A stretch of DNA of 64,000 bases, from contig NZ_ACJM01000005.1 in assembly GCF_000174415.1 (NCBI RefSeq), positions 62,001 to 126,000 of the forward strand. Reading direction: 5' to 3'. Below are positions 26,279-40,629 of this stretch, piece after piece. A program made the position numbers and the translations under genes. The notes beneath the pieces were generated by a model. It was given only the letters and a program-made list of their open reading frames with translations, was not told the origin of the DNA and ran no database searches. Source of the DNA: Dethiobacter alkaliphilus AHT 1 (GTDB taxonomy: Bacteria; Bacillota; Dethiobacteria; Dethiobacterales; Dethiobacteraceae). Each line of letters opens with the position of its first letter. Position 1 is the first letter of the stretch.

Positions 26279-26436
26279 TACTTATTTATCATTAAAATTT
26301 TAGACAATGGCAGGAATGCTTTCTTTTGGCGGAGAATATATAAATACAAAGCCATATTTAGAAAATGCTGTATCGATCCGTGCTGAATTATGCAGCTTAC
26401 TTCTAGCAAGCCTTCATTAAGGATTACTTTAGTTCT

Positions 26437-26516
26437 TGGGGGCTGTGATTTCAGGGCTTATATGGACGCTTTGCCCTGGGGGAGCCAGTAGCGTAACCGA
26501 CCACTTATGGTCGGTT
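26437..26516 (+). ncRNA. c-di-GMP-II riboswitch with terminator, copy 1
   Basis: The order GTGATTTCAGGG, CTTATATGGACGCTTTGCCC, GAGCCAGTAGCGTAACCGACC matches the c-di-GMP-II class. The pseudoknot strands ACGCT (26466-26470) and AGCGT (26490-26494) replace GCACU/AGUGC of the studied clostridial aptamer with kept pairing. The P2 stem GGGC/GCCC is also covariant. ACCGACC (26496-26502) is shared with a terminator stem to GGTCGGT and a T-run, so ligand binding and termination should exclude each other. The outer P1 pairing is weak in this copy. Confidence 0.8.
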
Positions 26517-27000: not shown

Positions 27001-27138
27001 GTTAAGTTACTTGAAATCTGACATAAAAGAATAAGAACTTTGCATACAGAATAGGATTAATTAATTAAATATGTAAAAATATATATGAACTGCATGTATA
27101 TTAATTCTGGCATACTACTCACTTTGCTTCCCACCCGT

Positions 27139-27236
27139 TTATGGGGGCTGTGATTTCAGGGCTTATATGGACGCTTTGCCCGGGAGGAGCCAGTAGCGTA
27201 ACCGACCATATATTAAGGTCGGTTATTTTAATTTTA
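27139..27236 (+). ncRNA. c-di-GMP-II riboswitch with terminator, copy 2
   Basis: Almost the same aptamer as copy 1. Here the outer P1 pairing is clear: TATGG (27140-27144) with CCATA (27206-27210). Pseudoknot ACGCT (27171-27175)/AGCGT (27195-27199) is identical. The terminator ACCGACC (27201-27207)/GGTCGGT (27217-27223) with TATTTTAATTTTAT overlaps the aptamer end, implying a transcription-level switch on the two small genes downstream. The remaining sequence from 27001 shows no gene. Confidence 0.83.
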
Positions 27237-28197: not shown

Positions 28198-29265
28198 GTG
28201 AGTGCAGAACGTTTTATAAATCCAGGTGACTTGTTTTTGCCTTGGAGCACTCGTAATACGACTAATACTACCAGAGCGCTAGGTAGTGACTTTAGTCAAA
28301 CTCAATATCCAGTTGCTGAAATGGCGTTTGCCGGTATCAGCCCTGTAACAGTATATCTGGCGTCCTCGGAAAATTTCTCAGAAGCGATTATCGGTACTCC
28401 TCTTATGCACCATCCCATCGATGGGCCGTTATTTCTAACTGATCCTAACCGAATAGACCCATTTGTCTTAGCAGCTATCAGGCGATTGGCCCCAACCGGC
28501 ATGGGTGAAGCTCAAGTAGTATTAATCGGTGAGTTTTCGGATCTTGTGATGCGAGCAATCCAATTCATGGGATTCACTGTACGGAGAATTTTAGGACCGG
28601 ATGATGTGTTTCACACTGCTCACCGTATTCTAAACGAGTTATGTGTGCCTCAAGATGTGTTTCTCATTTCTACTGATCCCAATCATGGCGGGCATATTAC
28701 CGGTGCATATTCCGCCCACTCCGGAGTGCCAATATTATTGACTGAGGGGCCAACTTTACCGCGGCATACCCGCATGGCATTAGAGCAGATAAATAACCCA
28801 CGAGTTTATATTGTTGGTACTACTAATGCCATTCCTCAAAGCGTGATTAATGAGGTGCAAGGCTTGGCTGGTTTTGTAGACGTCATTAGTGCCGATGATA
28901 TTTTTACCTTGGCCGTAAGATTCAGTCGGTACAGAAGCCCCGTTGCTGAGGTGGGCTGGGATAGAAATGAGCCTGACGGGCATGCGTTTACGTTTGTCCT
29001 TCCTCAGCCTTGGCAGTACTTGGTTTCTTCCGCTTCCTTGGCGCATTTGGGAAAACACACGCCGTTTTTGTTTGTAAACAGAGACAGTGTGCCGGAAGCT
29101 ACTATGCAATATATCATGCAGGTTAACCCGCAAAGTGGTGACAGACCGCCGTTTATGCACGGATTTATTATAGGCAACAAAAATGTAATCAGTATACCCG
29201 TTCAAAACGAATTGCATCTGGGATTGTCTGTAGATTTAGAGCACCACATGCCCCATGATTTATAA
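28198..29265 (+). CDS. Cell-wall-binding repeat 2 (CWB2)-like protein without signal peptide
   Basis: 355 residues. Blocks such as VTVYLASSENFSEAIIGTPLMHHPIDGPLFLTDPNRI, VFLISTDPNHGGHITGAYSAHSGVPILLTEG and NPRVYIVGTTNAIPQSV follow the CWB2 pattern (asserted name/identity strand, then 'pILLt' strand and 'v.iiGg...is' turn) that normally anchors S-layer proteins. There is no N-terminal hydrophobic segment, so export by the Sec route is unlikely and the protein may work in the cytoplasm. The GTG start follows AAAGGAGG. It stands alone, with a terminator on each side. Confidence 0.72.
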   Translation: MSAERFINPGDLFLPWSTRNTTNTTRALGSDFSQTQYPVAEMAFAGISPVTVYLASSENFSEAIIGTPLMHHPIDGPLFLTDPNRIDPFVLAAIRRLAPTGMGEAQVVLIGEFSDLVMRAIQFMGFTVRRILGPDDVFHTAHRILNELCVPQDVFLISTDPNHGGHITGAYSAHSGVPILLTEGPTLPRHTRMALEQINNPRVYIVGTTNAIPQSVINEVQGLAGFVDVISADDIFTLAVRFSRYRSPVAEVGWDRNEPDGHAFTFVLPQPWQYLVSSASLAHLGKHTPFLFVNRDSVPEATMQYIMQVNPQSGDRPPFMHGFIIGNKNVISIPVQNELHLGLSVDLEHHMPHDL

Positions 29266-35500: not shown

Positions 35501-35785
35501 CTCGGCATCACCACAGATGTAATCAACAAGGTAGCAGAAGGTAGGCCCCATGTTGTTGATATGATCAAAAACAGGGAAGTGGACTTTGTTATCAACACCG
35601 TTGCCGGCGCCCGAGCACGTAAAGACTCCTTATCCATAAGAAGGAGCGCGCTGCAGTACAGAGTTCCCTACACCACCACTGTAACCGGCGCCAGAGCCGC
35701 AGTTACAGCCATGGAAATGCTCAGTCAGAAAAATATTAATATCAAACCAATCCAGGAATATCACGCATCAATTAGAGAATCTTAA
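32525..35785 (+). CDS. carB: Carbamoyl-phosphate synthase large subunit
   Basis: 1086 residues, full length. Two tandem ATP-grasp halves: the first from [24 protein letters not shown], the second from [24 protein letters not shown] near residue 572, each with its [11 protein letters not shown]-type nucleotide loop, joined by the oligomerisation domain. The C-terminal methylglyoxal-synthase-like allosteric domain (about 945-1086) includes [20 protein letters not shown]. The last 176 bp shown at 35597-35772 recur almost unchanged at 40454-40629. Confidence 0.97.
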
Positions 35786-36070: not shown

Positions 36071-38659
36071 TCAAGTATTAATCAGCTCGTTGAGAACATT
36101 GGCCATTTCTTCTATCTGGTATGGTTTGGAAATAGCTTTCTTAAAACCATACCTGGAATGATGGGCCATGATTGGATCATCTGAATAACCGCTGGAGACA
36201 ATACCTTTAATCTCAGGATCTATTTTTATGAGCTCGTCGAAAGCTTCTTTGCCTCCCATACCGCCACGTACGGTTAAATCCATGATTACGACATCGTAGG
36301 GTTTTCCTGCGTTCAGGGCGCTTTGGTATTTTCTGATGGCTTCGGCTCCATCACTGGCAAAGCCCACGTCATAACCCAAATATTTTAACATTTCATCGGC
36401 AAAAGCACGAATCATTTGGTCGTCATCCATAACTAAAACTTTTCCTTTGCTCTTAATTGGAATGTTTGTAACAGGCAGCTCCTCGGGAAGGCACGCCTCC
36501 GATACCGGCAGGTGAATTGTAAACACAGTACCTGCGTCAATTTCTGATGTGACTTCAATCGTGCCATTATGGTGTTTTATTATAGAATACGCTGTAAAGA
36601 GACCCAAGCCGCTGCCCTCTGGTTTAGTTGTGAAGAATGGGTCGAAAACACGGTCTATGATAGTGGGCGGTATTCCCTTGCCCTGGTCCTGGAACGAAAT
36701 GCGGAGATATTTTCCTTCAGCTAACTTTTTACTGTGAATTCCTTCTCCGGAAAAAGTAACATTGCAAGCCTTTACGGATATAGAGCCGCCATTTGGCATG
36801 GCTTCTTTCGCATTGAGAAGCAAATTGTTAATTGCCTGGTTTAATTGCCCCTGGTCAATTTCAACGGGGTGTAGATCATGCGGCAGATCATAATCACAAG
36901 CTACGTTGGAACCGCTTAGTACAAACTCCGCCCATTCGCGAATTAATGGACCAAGGTTAGTAACTTTTTTTATGGGAGCGCCGCCTTTTGAGATAGTTAA
37001 TAATCGTTTGGTTAAACCTTGTGCATTTTTAGCCGCTTTTTCAATTTCACAGATTTTTGCCATAACCTTGTTGTTTTCGTCGGCATATAACTTAGCCAGT
37101 GATAAGTTGCCCAGTATAACAGTTAGAAGATTATTAAAATCATGGGCAATGCCCCCTGCCAAAGTGGAAACCGATTCAAGTTTATTCGACCTAAGCATTT
37201 CTTCTTGAATTCTTCTGTCTTCAGTCACATCGCGGAAGACGAGAACAATACCCAGAACATTATCGCTTTTATCAAGAATGGGTGCTGCGCTTTTTACAAT
37301 ATGCCTTTCTGTACCGGTCTTAGCTACAAGTACGGCCTTATCCCTGAGTTTGATGTGACGGCTTGTTTCTAAAACCTTAGTAACGGGGTTTTCACATTCA
37401 TCGCCTGAGATTTCATTTATTATCTGCAAAACATCTTCTAGGGATTTGCCATATGCCTCATTCTGTTTCCAACCAGTGAGCTCGGCAGCAACAGGATTGA
37501 TTAACTGAATAATTCCTGCCGCATCGGTTGTAATAACACCGTCTGCGATACTGTGCAAGGTAACTAGCAAGCGCTCCTTTTCTTCGGCAATGGCCTCTTC
37601 TGTTTGTTTAATCTTTTTATATTGCCGGGCATTTGAGATGGCCAATCCGCATACGCCAGTAATATTTAGCGCCACATTTAAATAACGGTTTTTATGCTCG
37701 CTGAAAGTAATGCCCGCAACGTCCAAAACGCCCCAGCAATCCTGGCCCTGTCCCAACCTAAGCAGAAATCCTTGACGGTTTGTATGCCAACGATACGGCG
37801 CCTTCATTAATAGGGCGATTTCACGGAGCTTATCCAAGCAGGGCTTTTTGTCTCCTCTGTAAACAGGGCTTGCGGTTTTACCATCGATTATAGGAATGTA
37901 GGAGAGCTGTTGAGGAGCAAAAAGCATGGTAAAAAGGTCTAAGATATTTGAAATGATTTCTTCTTCATTGGTGGCTTTGTATAACTTGCTCATTATATCT
38001 AAAATCATCGCATAGTCGGCGAGCTGACTATTGGCATAATCCCGGGTGTCCCGTACTTGTTCTTTTTCCTTGGATAGCTTCCATTCAAGAATCAGTGAAT
38101 TGATTATCAGAATTAAGTGGTCAAGCCCTACTGGTATTACCTCATAGGGTATTTGCAGATACTCTGATAAATCCTCAATGTTCTTTATCGGTTCAGTTTC
38201 ATTTAGCCTGCTATCCAGAAGAACTAATTTTTTTGCAAAATCGCGGAAAAACTCACTGGCATCGTCTCTTTTAAATCCCCACTGCTCTAAATAATCTTGC
38301 CAGTTTTTTAACCAACCGGGAGTTAAAAGGTAGGCACCTTCGTTAAGATATTTTTGTGTAAGAGACTTGGATACAAGTAAATGAAAGCACTGTTCCAAAT
38401 TGTATATACGAGGGTTGTTTGTCATAGCAAGTGCTTCTTTTTCAGGCAGGCAACTATCGGTGCCGATGAATATAGTTTGCTCACAGTCCGGAGGAATGAG
38501 GGAGAGTGCTTGGGTGACTGCATCCTTCCAGCCTTTGCGCTGGATACAAAGGGCAGGATAATGGATCACTTCGACAGATTCATTTCCTGAAGCGTTTAAT
38601 GCACTTTGTATTTCAGGGGCAATATTACTACAAGCCGCAATGCAGAGCTTATTTTTCAT
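36071..38659 (-). CDS. Hybrid sensor histidine kinase with DUF1638-like N-terminus
   Basis: 862 residues, no membrane segments. Residues about 1-200 resemble DUF1638 proteins found with corrinoid methyltransferases (IFIGTDSCLP, RIYNLEQCFHLLV, YLLTPGWLKNWQDYLEQWGF). A GAF-like region (about 225-340) and a PAS domain (about 365-480, ITTDAAGIIQLINPVAAELTGW) follow, then HisKA with phosphorylatable His in GGIAHDFNNLL (about 505), HATPase (KEAMPNGG; GSGLGLFTAYSI) and a receiver domain (about 735-860; Asp in DVVIMDLTVRGGMGG). No output domain is attached. It overlaps the methyltransferase-like gene by 11 bp. Confidence 0.85.
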   Translation of the reverse strand: MKNKLCIAACSNIAPEIQSALNASGNESVEVIHYPALCIQRKGWKDAVTQALSLIPPDCEQTIFIGTDSCLPEKEALAMTNNPRIYNLEQCFHLLVSKSLTQKYLNEGAYLLTPGWLKNWQDYLEQWGFKRDDASEFFRDFAKKLVLLDSRLNETEPIKNIEDLSEYLQIPYEVIPVGLDHLILIINSLILEWKLSKEKEQVRDTRDYANSQLADYAMILDIMSKLYKATNEEEIISNILDLFTMLFAPQQLSYIPIIDGKTASPVYRGDKKPCLDKLREIALLMKAPYRWHTNRQGFLLRLGQGQDCWGVLDVAGITFSEHKNRYLNVALNITGVCGLAISNARQYKKIKQTEEAIAEEKERLLVTLHSIADGVITTDAAGIIQLINPVAAELTGWKQNEAYGKSLEDVLQIINEISGDECENPVTKVLETSRHIKLRDKAVLVAKTGTERHIVKSAAPILDKSDNVLGIVLVFRDVTEDRRIQEEMLRSNKLESVSTLAGGIAHDFNNLLTVILGNLSLAKLYADENNKVMAKICEIEKAAKNAQGLTKRLLTISKGGAPIKKVTNLGPLIREWAEFVLSGSNVACDYDLPHDLHPVEIDQGQLNQAINNLLLNAKEAMPNGGSISVKACNVTFSGEGIHSKKLAEGKYLRISFQDQGKGIPPTIIDRVFDPFFTTKPEGSGLGLFTAYSIIKHHNGTIEVTSEIDAGTVFTIHLPVSEACLPEELPVTNIPIKSKGKVLVMDDDQMIRAFADEMLKYLGYDVGFASDGAEAIRKYQSALNAGKPYDVVIMDLTVRGGMGGKEAFDELIKIDPEIKGIVSSGYSDDPIMAHHSRYGFKKAISKPYQIEEMANVLNELINT

Positions 38660-39710
38660 AGCCGTTCACCCAATCCAGAGGATATTGACCCCATGTCCTG
38701 ACAGATTCTGATATTGCCATCAGCACCTGATCACTAACTTGGTAAGGAATTTCTCCATGGTTATCGGCTAAGATAAATCCGCCACCTTTGCCTGCTTTGC
38801 AAATAGCATTTTTGACAGCTTCTTCCGCCTGTTGGGTCGTCCATTTGGTCATTGCAATCCCATTTAGATTGCCCAATATGGAAAGCCGGTCCTTGCAGTG
38901 TTCCTTTACTTCAGATAGTTCATCTAATGCACTTATTCCTATGGCGGCTGTTCCAGTTTGGCTAACCAGATTAGAAATTGGCAAAGCTCTCCCTGATGCC
39001 AGGTGTGTTGCAGTAGGTCCTTTGATTTGGCTTAACGCTTGCTTAGCAACTTTGTAGCCGGTTTTGATATATAAGTCTCTTGGTATGATGTCAGATGAGG
39101 AGAGCGGGTCAAAATAACAGATTGCTGTTGCTCCGGCTGCTAACTGGGCATTAGCCCAGTCTACACAGTGCTGGCTATTTACTCGCATAAGCTGCCAGAA
39201 AAGATCTCCTTGTTCGTACAGCAGCTCAATATATTTGTCGAAGCCAAGCTGCATAGCGGGAAGAGAAAACGGCGACATCACTACCCCAATTATTGGCAGG
39301 TTATTGCCAACCCTTAACTTTAGCTGCGTTGTAGCTTCCAATACCTTTACCAGGCAGTTTACTTTGTCTGGCCTCGGCGGTTCAAGGGATTTAATTGCAT
39401 CCAGAGAGCGAATAAAAGGTCTGCCTGAGTTTGGTGACCCGTCTTCAGTGTATACAATTTCTCCACCCCAGGCTTCAACCTCTATTGCTGCATAAAAAAA
39501 AGTGTAGATACAGTCATGACCGTATTTTCTTTGCATTAAAAGTTGCCCATTGACAACATGCTCTGCTTTTGAAAAGTAATCTTCAATTGAGATGCTAAGC
39601 TCTTTGGCACCATGCATGGTTAGTAAGAGAAAAAAAGGCACTCGGTCTGGTTCCTGATGACTCAGAGCAGTCATTACACGTTGAAATGGTGTCATTTTTG
39701 GAATCAGCAT
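38649..39710 (-). CDS. Uroporphyrinogen decarboxylase/MtaA-family methyltransferase-like protein
   Basis: 353 residues with the UroD-type barrel: MTPFQRVMTALSHQEPDRVPFF start, LPIIGVVMSPFSLPAMQLGF and CYFDPLSSSDIIPRDLY. Methylcobamide:thiol methyltransferases of this family bind zinc through a His-x-Cys (HxCG) and a later Cys (SPGCG). Here these read THLASG and LADNHGEIP, so both cysteines are missing. It may bind a methylated corrinoid without transferring to a thiol, or use another acceptor. It overlaps the corrinoid protein gene by seven bases and the kinase gene by eleven. Confidence 0.85.
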   Translation of the reverse strand: MLIPKMTPFQRVMTALSHQEPDRVPFFLLLTMHGAKELSISIEDYFSKAEHVVNGQLLMQRKYGHDCIYTFFYAAIEVEAWGGEIVYTEDGSPNSGRPFIRSLDAIKSLEPPRPDKVNCLVKVLEATTQLKLRVGNNLPIIGVVMSPFSLPAMQLGFDKYIELLYEQGDLFWQLMRVNSQHCVDWANAQLAAGATAICYFDPLSSSDIIPRDLYIKTGYKVAKQALSQIKGPTATHLASGRALPISNLVSQTGTAAIGISALDELSEVKEHCKDRLSILGNLNGIAMTKWTTQQAEEAVKNAICKAGKGGGFILADNHGEIPYQVSDQVLMAISESVRTWGQYPLDWVNGYEK

Positions 39711-40342
39711 CGGTTTACACTCATCCCTTCGATAAGCTCCAACGCGTCATAGGGGTTTTTTCCCATTGCATAGGCATCAACCTCTTGCCACAACTGCTCA
39801 TCTAGTACAAATGGAGCGCCGCCTACGATGACCATTACATCTGTACCCTTGGCCCGGAGTTTTTCTATAAGGGGTTTAATTTTTAAAGCGGAAGGGAGCA
39901 TTAATGTAGAAATAAGCAAAATGTCTAAGCGATCCTTCAACACCAAATCAACCAGTTCATCTACACCCAGTCCATAACCGTAATCCAAGATTTTATATCC
40001 CCGGGCACGCAGAAAAGACAGGATAATTCGCTTACCCAAGGCATGGTGGTCAATTAACGTTGCAATAGCAATTTTAGCCTGGTTAGGTACTTGTGTTTCA
40101 TAATCCGCAAGCAGTAGGTCAGTCAGTTCTTCACAGATTTTACCACTCATATAGACCTGGGAAAGAGTAATAGAGCCTTCTTCCCAGCCCTCTCCGATTA
40201 TTTCCAGAGCGGGAGCAACCACTTCATCAAAAAAGTCATAAATACTTTTTCCAGTGCTGCGGAATTCAGCTAAAATCTCTTTAGCTTTTATACGGTCAAT
40301 GTGAAGCAGGGCTTCCATGAATCTGCCACAGAATTTTTCCAT
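39704..40342 (-). CDS. Corrinoid (B12-binding) methyltransferase-type protein
   Basis: About 212 residues. An N-terminal helical methionine-synthase-like cap domain (about 1-90, YDFFDEVVAPALEIIGEGWEEGSITLSQVYMSGK) precedes a B12-binding Rossmann domain: DHHALG is the DxHxxG cobalt-ligand motif, STLM the S-x-L turn and VGGAP the GG motif. It should carry a base-off/His-on corrinoid and shuttle methyl groups. The ATG at 40342 follows GGGGGAG; an earlier in-frame start has no ribosome site. First gene of a three-gene overlapping operon. Confidence 0.88.
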   Translation of the reverse strand: MEKFCGRFMEALLHIDRIKAKEILAEFRSTGKSIYDFFDEVVAPALEIIGEGWEEGSITLSQVYMSGKICEELTDLLLADYETQVPNQAKIAIATLIDHHALGKRIILSFLRARGYKILDYGYGLGVDELVDLVLKDRLDILLISTLMLPSALKIKPLIEKLRAKGTDVMVIVGGAPFVLDEQLWQEVDAYAMGKNPYDALELIEGMSVNRC

Positions 40343-40370: not shown

Positions 40371-40399
40371 TGTATATTATCTTCAACAAAACTTGTCAA
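40371..40399 (-). promoter_or_regulatory. Promoter of the corrinoid-methyltransferase-kinase operon
   Basis: Minus strand TTGACA (40394-40399), 17-bp spacer, TATACA (40371-40376). Confidence 0.8.
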
Positions 40400-40453: not shown

Positions 40454-40629
40454 ACCGTTGCCGGCGCCAGAGCACGTAAAGACTCCTTATCCATAAGAAG
40501 GAGCGCGCTGCAGTACAGAGTTCCCTACACCACCACTGTAACCGGCGCCAGAGCCGCAGTTACAGCCATGGAAATGCTCAGAGAGAAAAATATTAATATC
40601 AAACCAATCCAGGAATATCACGCATCAAT
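40454..40629 (+). pseudogene. Duplicated 3' end of carB
   Basis: 176 bp matching 35597-35772 without gaps and with about three differences, in the same orientation. It encodes only the end of the CarB allosteric domain, with no start. Together with intact carB it brackets the 4.7-kb corrinoid block. 40630-40750 shows only a short GGCC-TTTT-GGCC hairpin. Confidence 0.93.

Follow-up and report, generated by a model that had tools for sequence, protein, structure and literature searches.

Three overlapping genes in the window, a stretch of 64,000 nucleotides from Dethiobacter alkaliphilus AHT 1 (contig NZ_ACJM01000005.1, positions 62,001 to 126,000), encode a corrinoid (vitamin B12-binding) protein, a protein of the URO-D/MtaA fold (the URO-D-like protein), and a hybrid histidine kinase that begins with DUF1638 and GAF domains. 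Sequence comparison firmly indicates that these genes represent a recurring set with a sensor-input role, and that only the input half (corrinoid protein, URO-D-like protein, and DUF1638-GAF part) belongs to this cassette, the output being swapped between histidine kinases, with or without a receiver, and diguanylate cyclases. The three input parts are likely to form one dedicated signal-input unit that comes from a corrinoid methyltransferase system and would work by a mechanism in which, among other steps, DUF1638 reads the cobalt state; the signal would plausibly be the methylation or the cobalt state of the corrinoid. The cassette is probably an undescribed and widespread means of sensing via vitamin B12. 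We are somewhat more doubtful than confident that it amounts to a new class of signal transduction in bacteria and archaea, in which a methyl donor would act at the URO-D-like protein, the corrinoid state would be the second step, and the four-cysteine (Cys4) site of DUF1638 would hand on to the swapped outputs.

Occurrence of the cassette

A profile built from 13 URO-D-like proteins was scanned against 84,980 species genomes, resulting in 292 relatives, and the locus counts given here rest on the best 80 of these (57-66% identical). At least 15 named phyla are represented among the 80 loci, Thermodesulfobacteriota, Pseudomonadota, Bacteroidota, Chloroflexota, and Nitrospirota among them, as are two methanogens. 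The corrinoid gene is directly upstream of the URO-D gene in 78 loci and fused to it in one (L121, a Brocadia genome), the remaining locus meeting a contig end, and the next gene downstream contains DUF1638 and/or GAF in 77 (in two others the contig ends first, and in one no third gene is recognisable). Conserved co-occurrence, a check proposed in the initial annotation, is thus found, with the corrinoid gene beside or fused to the URO-D gene in 79/80 loci and a DUF1638/GAF signalling gene downstream in 77/80. Because the set recurs across phyla, it is no chance grouping. Occurrence is patchy: the cassette is found in 14 of the 98 genomes of the window's class and, at high score, in 3 of 198 genomes of the Desulfocicer phylum.

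No enzyme family (activator, acceptor enzyme, transporter, or MtxB) is conserved next to the cassette across the 80 loci, and a catabolic operon was rejected as the main explanation on this ground; the adjacent MtxB and activator that mark a catabolic MtxABC operon are missing both in the window and from the conserved neighbours. In the relatives, the direct same-strand neighbours mostly encode receivers (30 of 72), kinases, or PAS proteins. The proposal of a sensor that arose from catabolic corrinoid-methyltransferase parts is supported by these results: 77 of the 80 cassettes continue into a signalling gene, their flanks are occupied by signalling genes, and the zinc cysteines of the URO-D-like protein are lost throughout. 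Homologous operons that always contain MtxB and a zinc-type MtxA, named in advance as telling against a sensor, are not what the loci hold. The sensory reading is well supported because the set recurs, its output is exchanged, and no metabolic gene is conserved.

A divergent second type is present in six genomes: those of Methylobacter oryzae and Desulfocicer vacuolatum, each of which also contains the first type, and four others from the Desulfocicer phylum. Its URO-D-like protein also has no zinc cysteine pair, and the gene order is corrinoid, URO-D-like, DUF1638, and kinase (the corrinoid gene being lost to a contig end in one locus). In five of the six loci DUF1638 has a gene of its own, and the sixth (L207) encodes a fusion of DUF1638 with a longer C-terminal part. 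That DUF1638 occurs both fused and separate while the gene order stays the same is good evidence that the parts work as one functional unit. One genome of the Desulfocicer phylum encodes a sensor-clade URO-D-like protein (L208, 5712-6791; motifs HLASG and DNNGE) with a GGDEF gene 1.3 kb downstream.

Corrinoid and URO-D-like proteins

The corrinoid protein matches the Pfam families B12-binding_2 (4.9e-12) and B12-binding (1.8e-14), and its nearest NCBIfam model is that of methyltransferase corrinoid proteins (77 bits, below the cut-off of 215.3). Its gene is predicted to start at an ATG (40342) that is preceded by a GGGGGAG ribosome-binding site, with an alternative TTG start at 40399; residue numbers are counted from the TTG, so that the ATG is codon 20. 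The base-off/His-on motif is complete (D117xH119xxG122-41-S164xL166-26-G193G194), and D117, H119, G122, S164, L166, G193, and G194 are each invariant in 90 of 90 relatives, which bears out the earlier description of a B12-binding protein with an intact DxHxxG site. With a B12-binding cap followed by a domain that contains the DxHxxG, SxL, and GG elements, the protein is a corrinoid protein of the methyltransferase type, and the solved structures nearest by sequence are methylamine corrinoid proteins.

The cap also contains GxxW, part of the light signature of CarH, with G69 and W72 each present in 89/89 relatives. A light sensor was considered on this basis, in which photolysis of alkyl-cobalamin on the corrinoid protein would be the signal and the URO-D-like protein would serve as a lid. 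The motif (PMC11796333), with its invariant tryptophan, and the photocobilins among the fold matches of the corrinoid part agree with such a role. The EH pair of the signature is replaced by V/I-Y (Y83 in 88/89), the 231-residue corrinoid protein has no extra domain, the nearest solved relatives are the methylamine proteins, many carriers are sediment organisms, and the URO-D-like protein would be left without a clear role; we therefore find the light sensor very improbable. A CarH-like photoreceptor was rejected as a candidate, its signature being half present.

The URO-D-like protein matches Pfam URO-D at 1.1e-50, which places it in the TIM-barrel fold of MtaA and MtbA, and scores 111 bits against the nearest NCBIfam model, the MtaA/CmuA methyltransferases (TIGR01463; cut-off 235.4). 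The MtaA fold is intact in a structure model of the relative L121 (template modelling (TM) score 0.89 to MtaA, 4ay7); this fusion was modelled from a 20-row alignment and the orientation of its domains (predicted TM score 0.64) was not used as evidence for a complex. The zinc ligands of MtaA are a His-x-Cys...Cys set. Aligned with 4ay7, the first cysteine is replaced by Ala238 (THLASG) and the second falls within Asn317-His318-Gly319-Glu320 (LADNHGE), while His236 is kept, so that the full ligand set of MtaA/MtbA is absent. Among 93 relatives, these positions are conserved as H236 in 91, A238 in 92, N317 in 91, H318 in 92, and E320 in 93, whereas more distant URO-D relatives in the window's class mostly retain HxC and C. 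Judged by alignment, the thiolate zinc site is lost and a new conserved His/Glu set is fixed in the URO-D-like proteins of the sensor type. The initial description of a zinc-less protein stands insofar as both cysteines are replaced; a metal-free protein is not implied, since His236 is retained and a conserved His and Glu are new, and conservation and secondary-structure position point to a putative His/His/Glu metal site. Putative pocket residues (E77, N178, D201, S205, H236, and E320) are conserved as well.

Such conservation could also be that of a catalyst. If the corrinoid and URO-D-like proteins were a working methyltransferase, the kinase or cyclase would merely regulate, or be regulated by, a small metabolic operon; the strongly conserved barrel, corrinoid motif, and putative pocket residues and the intact MtaA fold are as expected of an enzyme, and URO-D-fold enzymes may act as the substrate-side enzyme, as in CmuA. 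This we consider quite unlikely, since no metabolic gene (activator, acceptor enzyme, transporter, or any other) is conserved alongside, each of five genomes examined has a single high-scoring copy, and the conserved third gene encodes a signal transducer with a cassette-specific input half.

The signalling protein and its exchangeable outputs

The third gene was described initially as a hybrid kinase starting with a DUF1638-like domain, and Pfam agrees: DUF1638 (PF07796; 1.6e-11, 44.8 bits against a cut-off of 27, with the conserved Cys/His set present), PAS, HATPase_c, and Response_reg score above their cut-offs, and HisKA (23.8 bits) is slightly under its cut-off of 26.9. The phospho-acceptor H506, the N and G boxes, and the receiver D794 of a hybrid histidine kinase are all present. 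The region between DUF1638 and PAS, left unnamed by Pfam and by the initial annotation, has a mean predicted local distance difference test score of 93 in the AlphaFold model and matches the GAF domain of E. coli KdpD (4qpr) in Foldseek (TM score 0.75, target-normalised); on this model it is a GAF domain, flanked on both sides by long helices. GAF is the most constant link of the third genes, being present even in the 15 without DUF1638.

Four cysteines of DUF1638 are conserved in the sensor version (70/72, 68/71, 61/72, and 67/72), and at these positions 28/28 stand-alone DUF1638 proteins from the phylum of the window have Cys, His, Cys, and Cys. In the confident model, each cysteine is at or just after the end of one of strands 1-4, which fits a shared metal site, and conservation and secondary-structure position suggest that the Cys4 set (Cys3His in the stand-alone relatives) probably forms one. 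Of 30 stand-alone DUF1638 genes, 17 are within 1.5 kb of, or fused to, a corrinoid gene, and a natural DUF1638 and B12-binding fusion was confirmed (L157, 670-2520; 617 residues with a 175-residue N-terminus to which no domain is assigned). The proximity of such genes to corrinoid genes, the fusion, and the gene order of the cassette indirectly favour the putative contact of the kinase N-terminus with the other two proteins. Methionine synthesis by the split MetH of Phaeobacter depends on a DUF1638 gene (PMC5764234), and in Ruegeria a DUF1638 protein has been named a predicted cobalamin-recharging protein (PMC12478193).

The cysteines also bear on a redox or oxygen sensor, in which the Co(I)/Co(II) state, perhaps together with an iron-sulphur cluster on DUF1638, would be the signal and no methyl donor would take part. 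Their placement at strands 1-4, the co-occurrence of DUF1638 with a RamA-like activator in alphaproteobacteria (PMC5764234), and the largely anoxic or redox-gradient habitats of the carriers are in keeping with it. The constant presence of a conserved methyltransferase-fold barrel would go unexplained, and we rate this alternative as unlikely. As the signal, we rank methylation ahead of oxidation state and oxidation state ahead of light.

The output half varies. All 12 readable relatives in the window's class end in GGDEF with an intact GGEEF or GGDEF motif, and the window protein is a histidine kinase. In 73 third-gene proteins from all phyla, HATPase_c (46), HisKA (37), receiver (13), and GGDEF (9) domains were found, and none of the 20 families found in these proteins is a metabolic domain. 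The URO-D tree requires at least seven changes between kinase and cyclase, with many of its branches weakly supported. The HK-REC (histidine kinase and receiver) half of the window kinase shares 44-48% identity with four further hybrid kinases encoded in the same genome and only 25-34% with the kinases of other cassettes, while the identity of the input half to cassette proteins from Chloroflexota and Proteobacteria is 33-38%. With its C-terminal half most similar to kinases from the same genome, the protein is an input module joined to a resident kinase. The idea that this particular kinase has a special property was rejected, its C-terminal half belonging to that kinase group. The earlier proposal of the kinase as the target of the sensor has to be amended, the window kinase being one among several exchangeable outputs. 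None of the genes neighbouring the window cassette encodes a response regulator with an output domain.

Proposed mechanism

Having lost the zinc thiolate site, which in MtaA-type enzymes activates the acceptor thiol, the URO-D-like protein would no longer pass a methyl group to a thiol. It may act instead as a ligand-binding component or as one for methylation on the substrate side: a small molecule, in the simplest case a methyl donor, would bind to it, and it would thereby determine whether the cobalt on the corrinoid protein is methylated and whether it is oxidised or reduced. The corrinoid protein, in its loaded or its unloaded form, could then dock on DUF1638, whose Cys4 set is probably a metal site, with DUF1638 (where present) and GAF as the readers. 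The change would pass through the GAF and PAS helices, and the kinase would phosphorylate itself, its receiver, and then a separate partner.

Several observations weigh against this reading. DUF1638 cannot be the sole reader because 15 of the 77 third genes contain GAF and no DUF1638 (several of these loci have kinases directly upstream). One locus (L075) is the one without a recognisable third gene, the type-I URO-D gene of L208 has no adjoining corrinoid or DUF1638 gene, and the GxxW of CarH is retained in the corrinoid cap. The relatives are mostly from metagenome-assembled genomes, in which single assignments may be wrong.

Comparison with known systems

The cassette resembles MtaA/MtbA (TIGR01463; PDB 4ay7) with MtaC/MtbC in its URO-D fold, corrinoid pairing, and full B12 motif, but differs in its His-x-Ala...Asn-His-Gly-Glu set, its score below the family cut-off, and the kinase or diguanylate cyclase, not MtxB, that follows. 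The mec cassette of dichloromethane degraders likewise groups a corrinoid protein and an MtaA/CmuA-family protein with a sensor kinase; that kinase is a two-component regulator with a PocR domain and controls the transcription of a catabolic operon that includes several methyltransferases (PMC9768040), whereas the window cassette has no further enzyme and its kinase contains DUF1638-GAF. CarH and the photocobilins (PMC11796333, PMC10979010) also use a B12 cap and Rossmann domain in signalling, with a tryptophan at the equal cap position; the cassette corrinoid protein has no EH pair and no DNA-binding or bilin domain, and is joined by two extra proteins (URO-D-like and DUF1638-GAF-output). The split methionine synthase of Phaeobacter (PMC5764234) shares DUF1638 and a separate corrinoid protein with the cassette, but that system is metabolic and its DUF1638 stands alone; the stand-alone proteins sampled here are of the Cys-His-Cys-Cys form, and the sensor version mostly has four cysteines.

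No description of the cassette was found in open-access papers, subscription journals being largely outside the search. The outputs are ordinary two-component and cyclic di-GMP signalling, and the novelty lies in the input unit, of which we know of no described counterpart. Outside light sensing, B12 is mostly known as an enzyme cofactor. If true, the proposed role across phyla would give B12 a chemical sensing role, would give DUF1638 (of unknown function and required in some methionine synthases) a testable one, and would suggest that sediments and other oxygen-poor habitats have a chemical cue in common. Such genes score as methyltransferase and corrinoid protein in annotation, yet they are no evidence of methylotrophy.

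The locus and its surroundings

The presence of three overlapping genes at 36071-40342 was reported initially, and those coordinates and residue statements are correct (Table 1). The corrinoid and URO-D-like genes overlap by 7 nucleotides and the URO-D-like and kinase genes by 11.

Table 1. Positions in the window of the cassette genes, kinase domains, and flanking repeats.
Feature	Coordinates	Strand	Basis or detail
Corrinoid (B12-binding) protein gene, MtbC/MtaC-like	39704..40342	(-)	Open reading frame, Pfam, NCBIfam, motif
URO-D/MtaA-fold protein gene	38649..39710	(-)	Open reading frame, Pfam, alignment with 4ay7
Hybrid histidine kinase gene, DUF1638-GAF-PAS-HisKA-HATPase-REC	36071..38659	(-)	862 amino acids
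DUF1638 domain of kinase	38075..38659	(-)	About codons 1-195; Cys10, Cys38, Cys70, Cys91
GAF domain of kinase	37610..38047	(-)	About codons 205-350; by fold, missed by Pfam
PAS domain of kinase	37226..37564	(-)	Pfam
HisKA and HATPase_c of kinase	36500..37168	(-)	
Receiver domain of kinase	36092..36439	(-)	
176-nucleotide direct repeat, copy 1 (3' end of carB)	35597..35772		
176-nucleotide direct repeat, copy 2, upstream of cassette	40454..40629		98% identical to copy 1

A copy of the carB end lies on each side of the cassette, whose G+C content is 42-46% vs 51% in carB; the repeats and the lower G+C content are consistent with recent acquisition of the cassette next to carB. The other neighbours in the window are an alpha/beta hydrolase, a TetR regulator, a universal stress protein, and a NiFe hydrogenase. 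As first reported, there is no MtxB-type methyltransferase or reductive activator beside the window cassette; both kinds exist elsewhere in the genome, which contains two activators of the RACo type. About 67 kb past the window end on the same contig, three MttB-family genes are found with a corrinoid protein and a gene resembling a pterin-binding methyltransferase, without DUF1638 (L188; G000:C5:188000-202000), and this cluster is likely a catabolic corrinoid system.

Two other arrangements of corrinoid and URO-D genes were encountered. One is an operon of corrinoid, URO-D (HTT / SGC motif), and PAS-GGDEF genes without DUF1638 (L069, G080:C159, 790-3986), perhaps an independent case of corrinoid-based signalling, of which no close relative was found among the 98 genomes of the class. 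The other consists of corrinoid-URO-D fusions of about 570 residues (L071, 7908-9617; L072, 4689-6401) beside a conserved gene for 439-441 residues (MEKRITF...), probably a different, metabolic system. Elsewhere in the window, two c-di-GMP-II riboswitch aptamers (26429-26511 and 27134-27216, plus strand) lie about 0.7 kb apart, upstream of a CWB2 (cell-wall-binding-repeat) gene at 28198.

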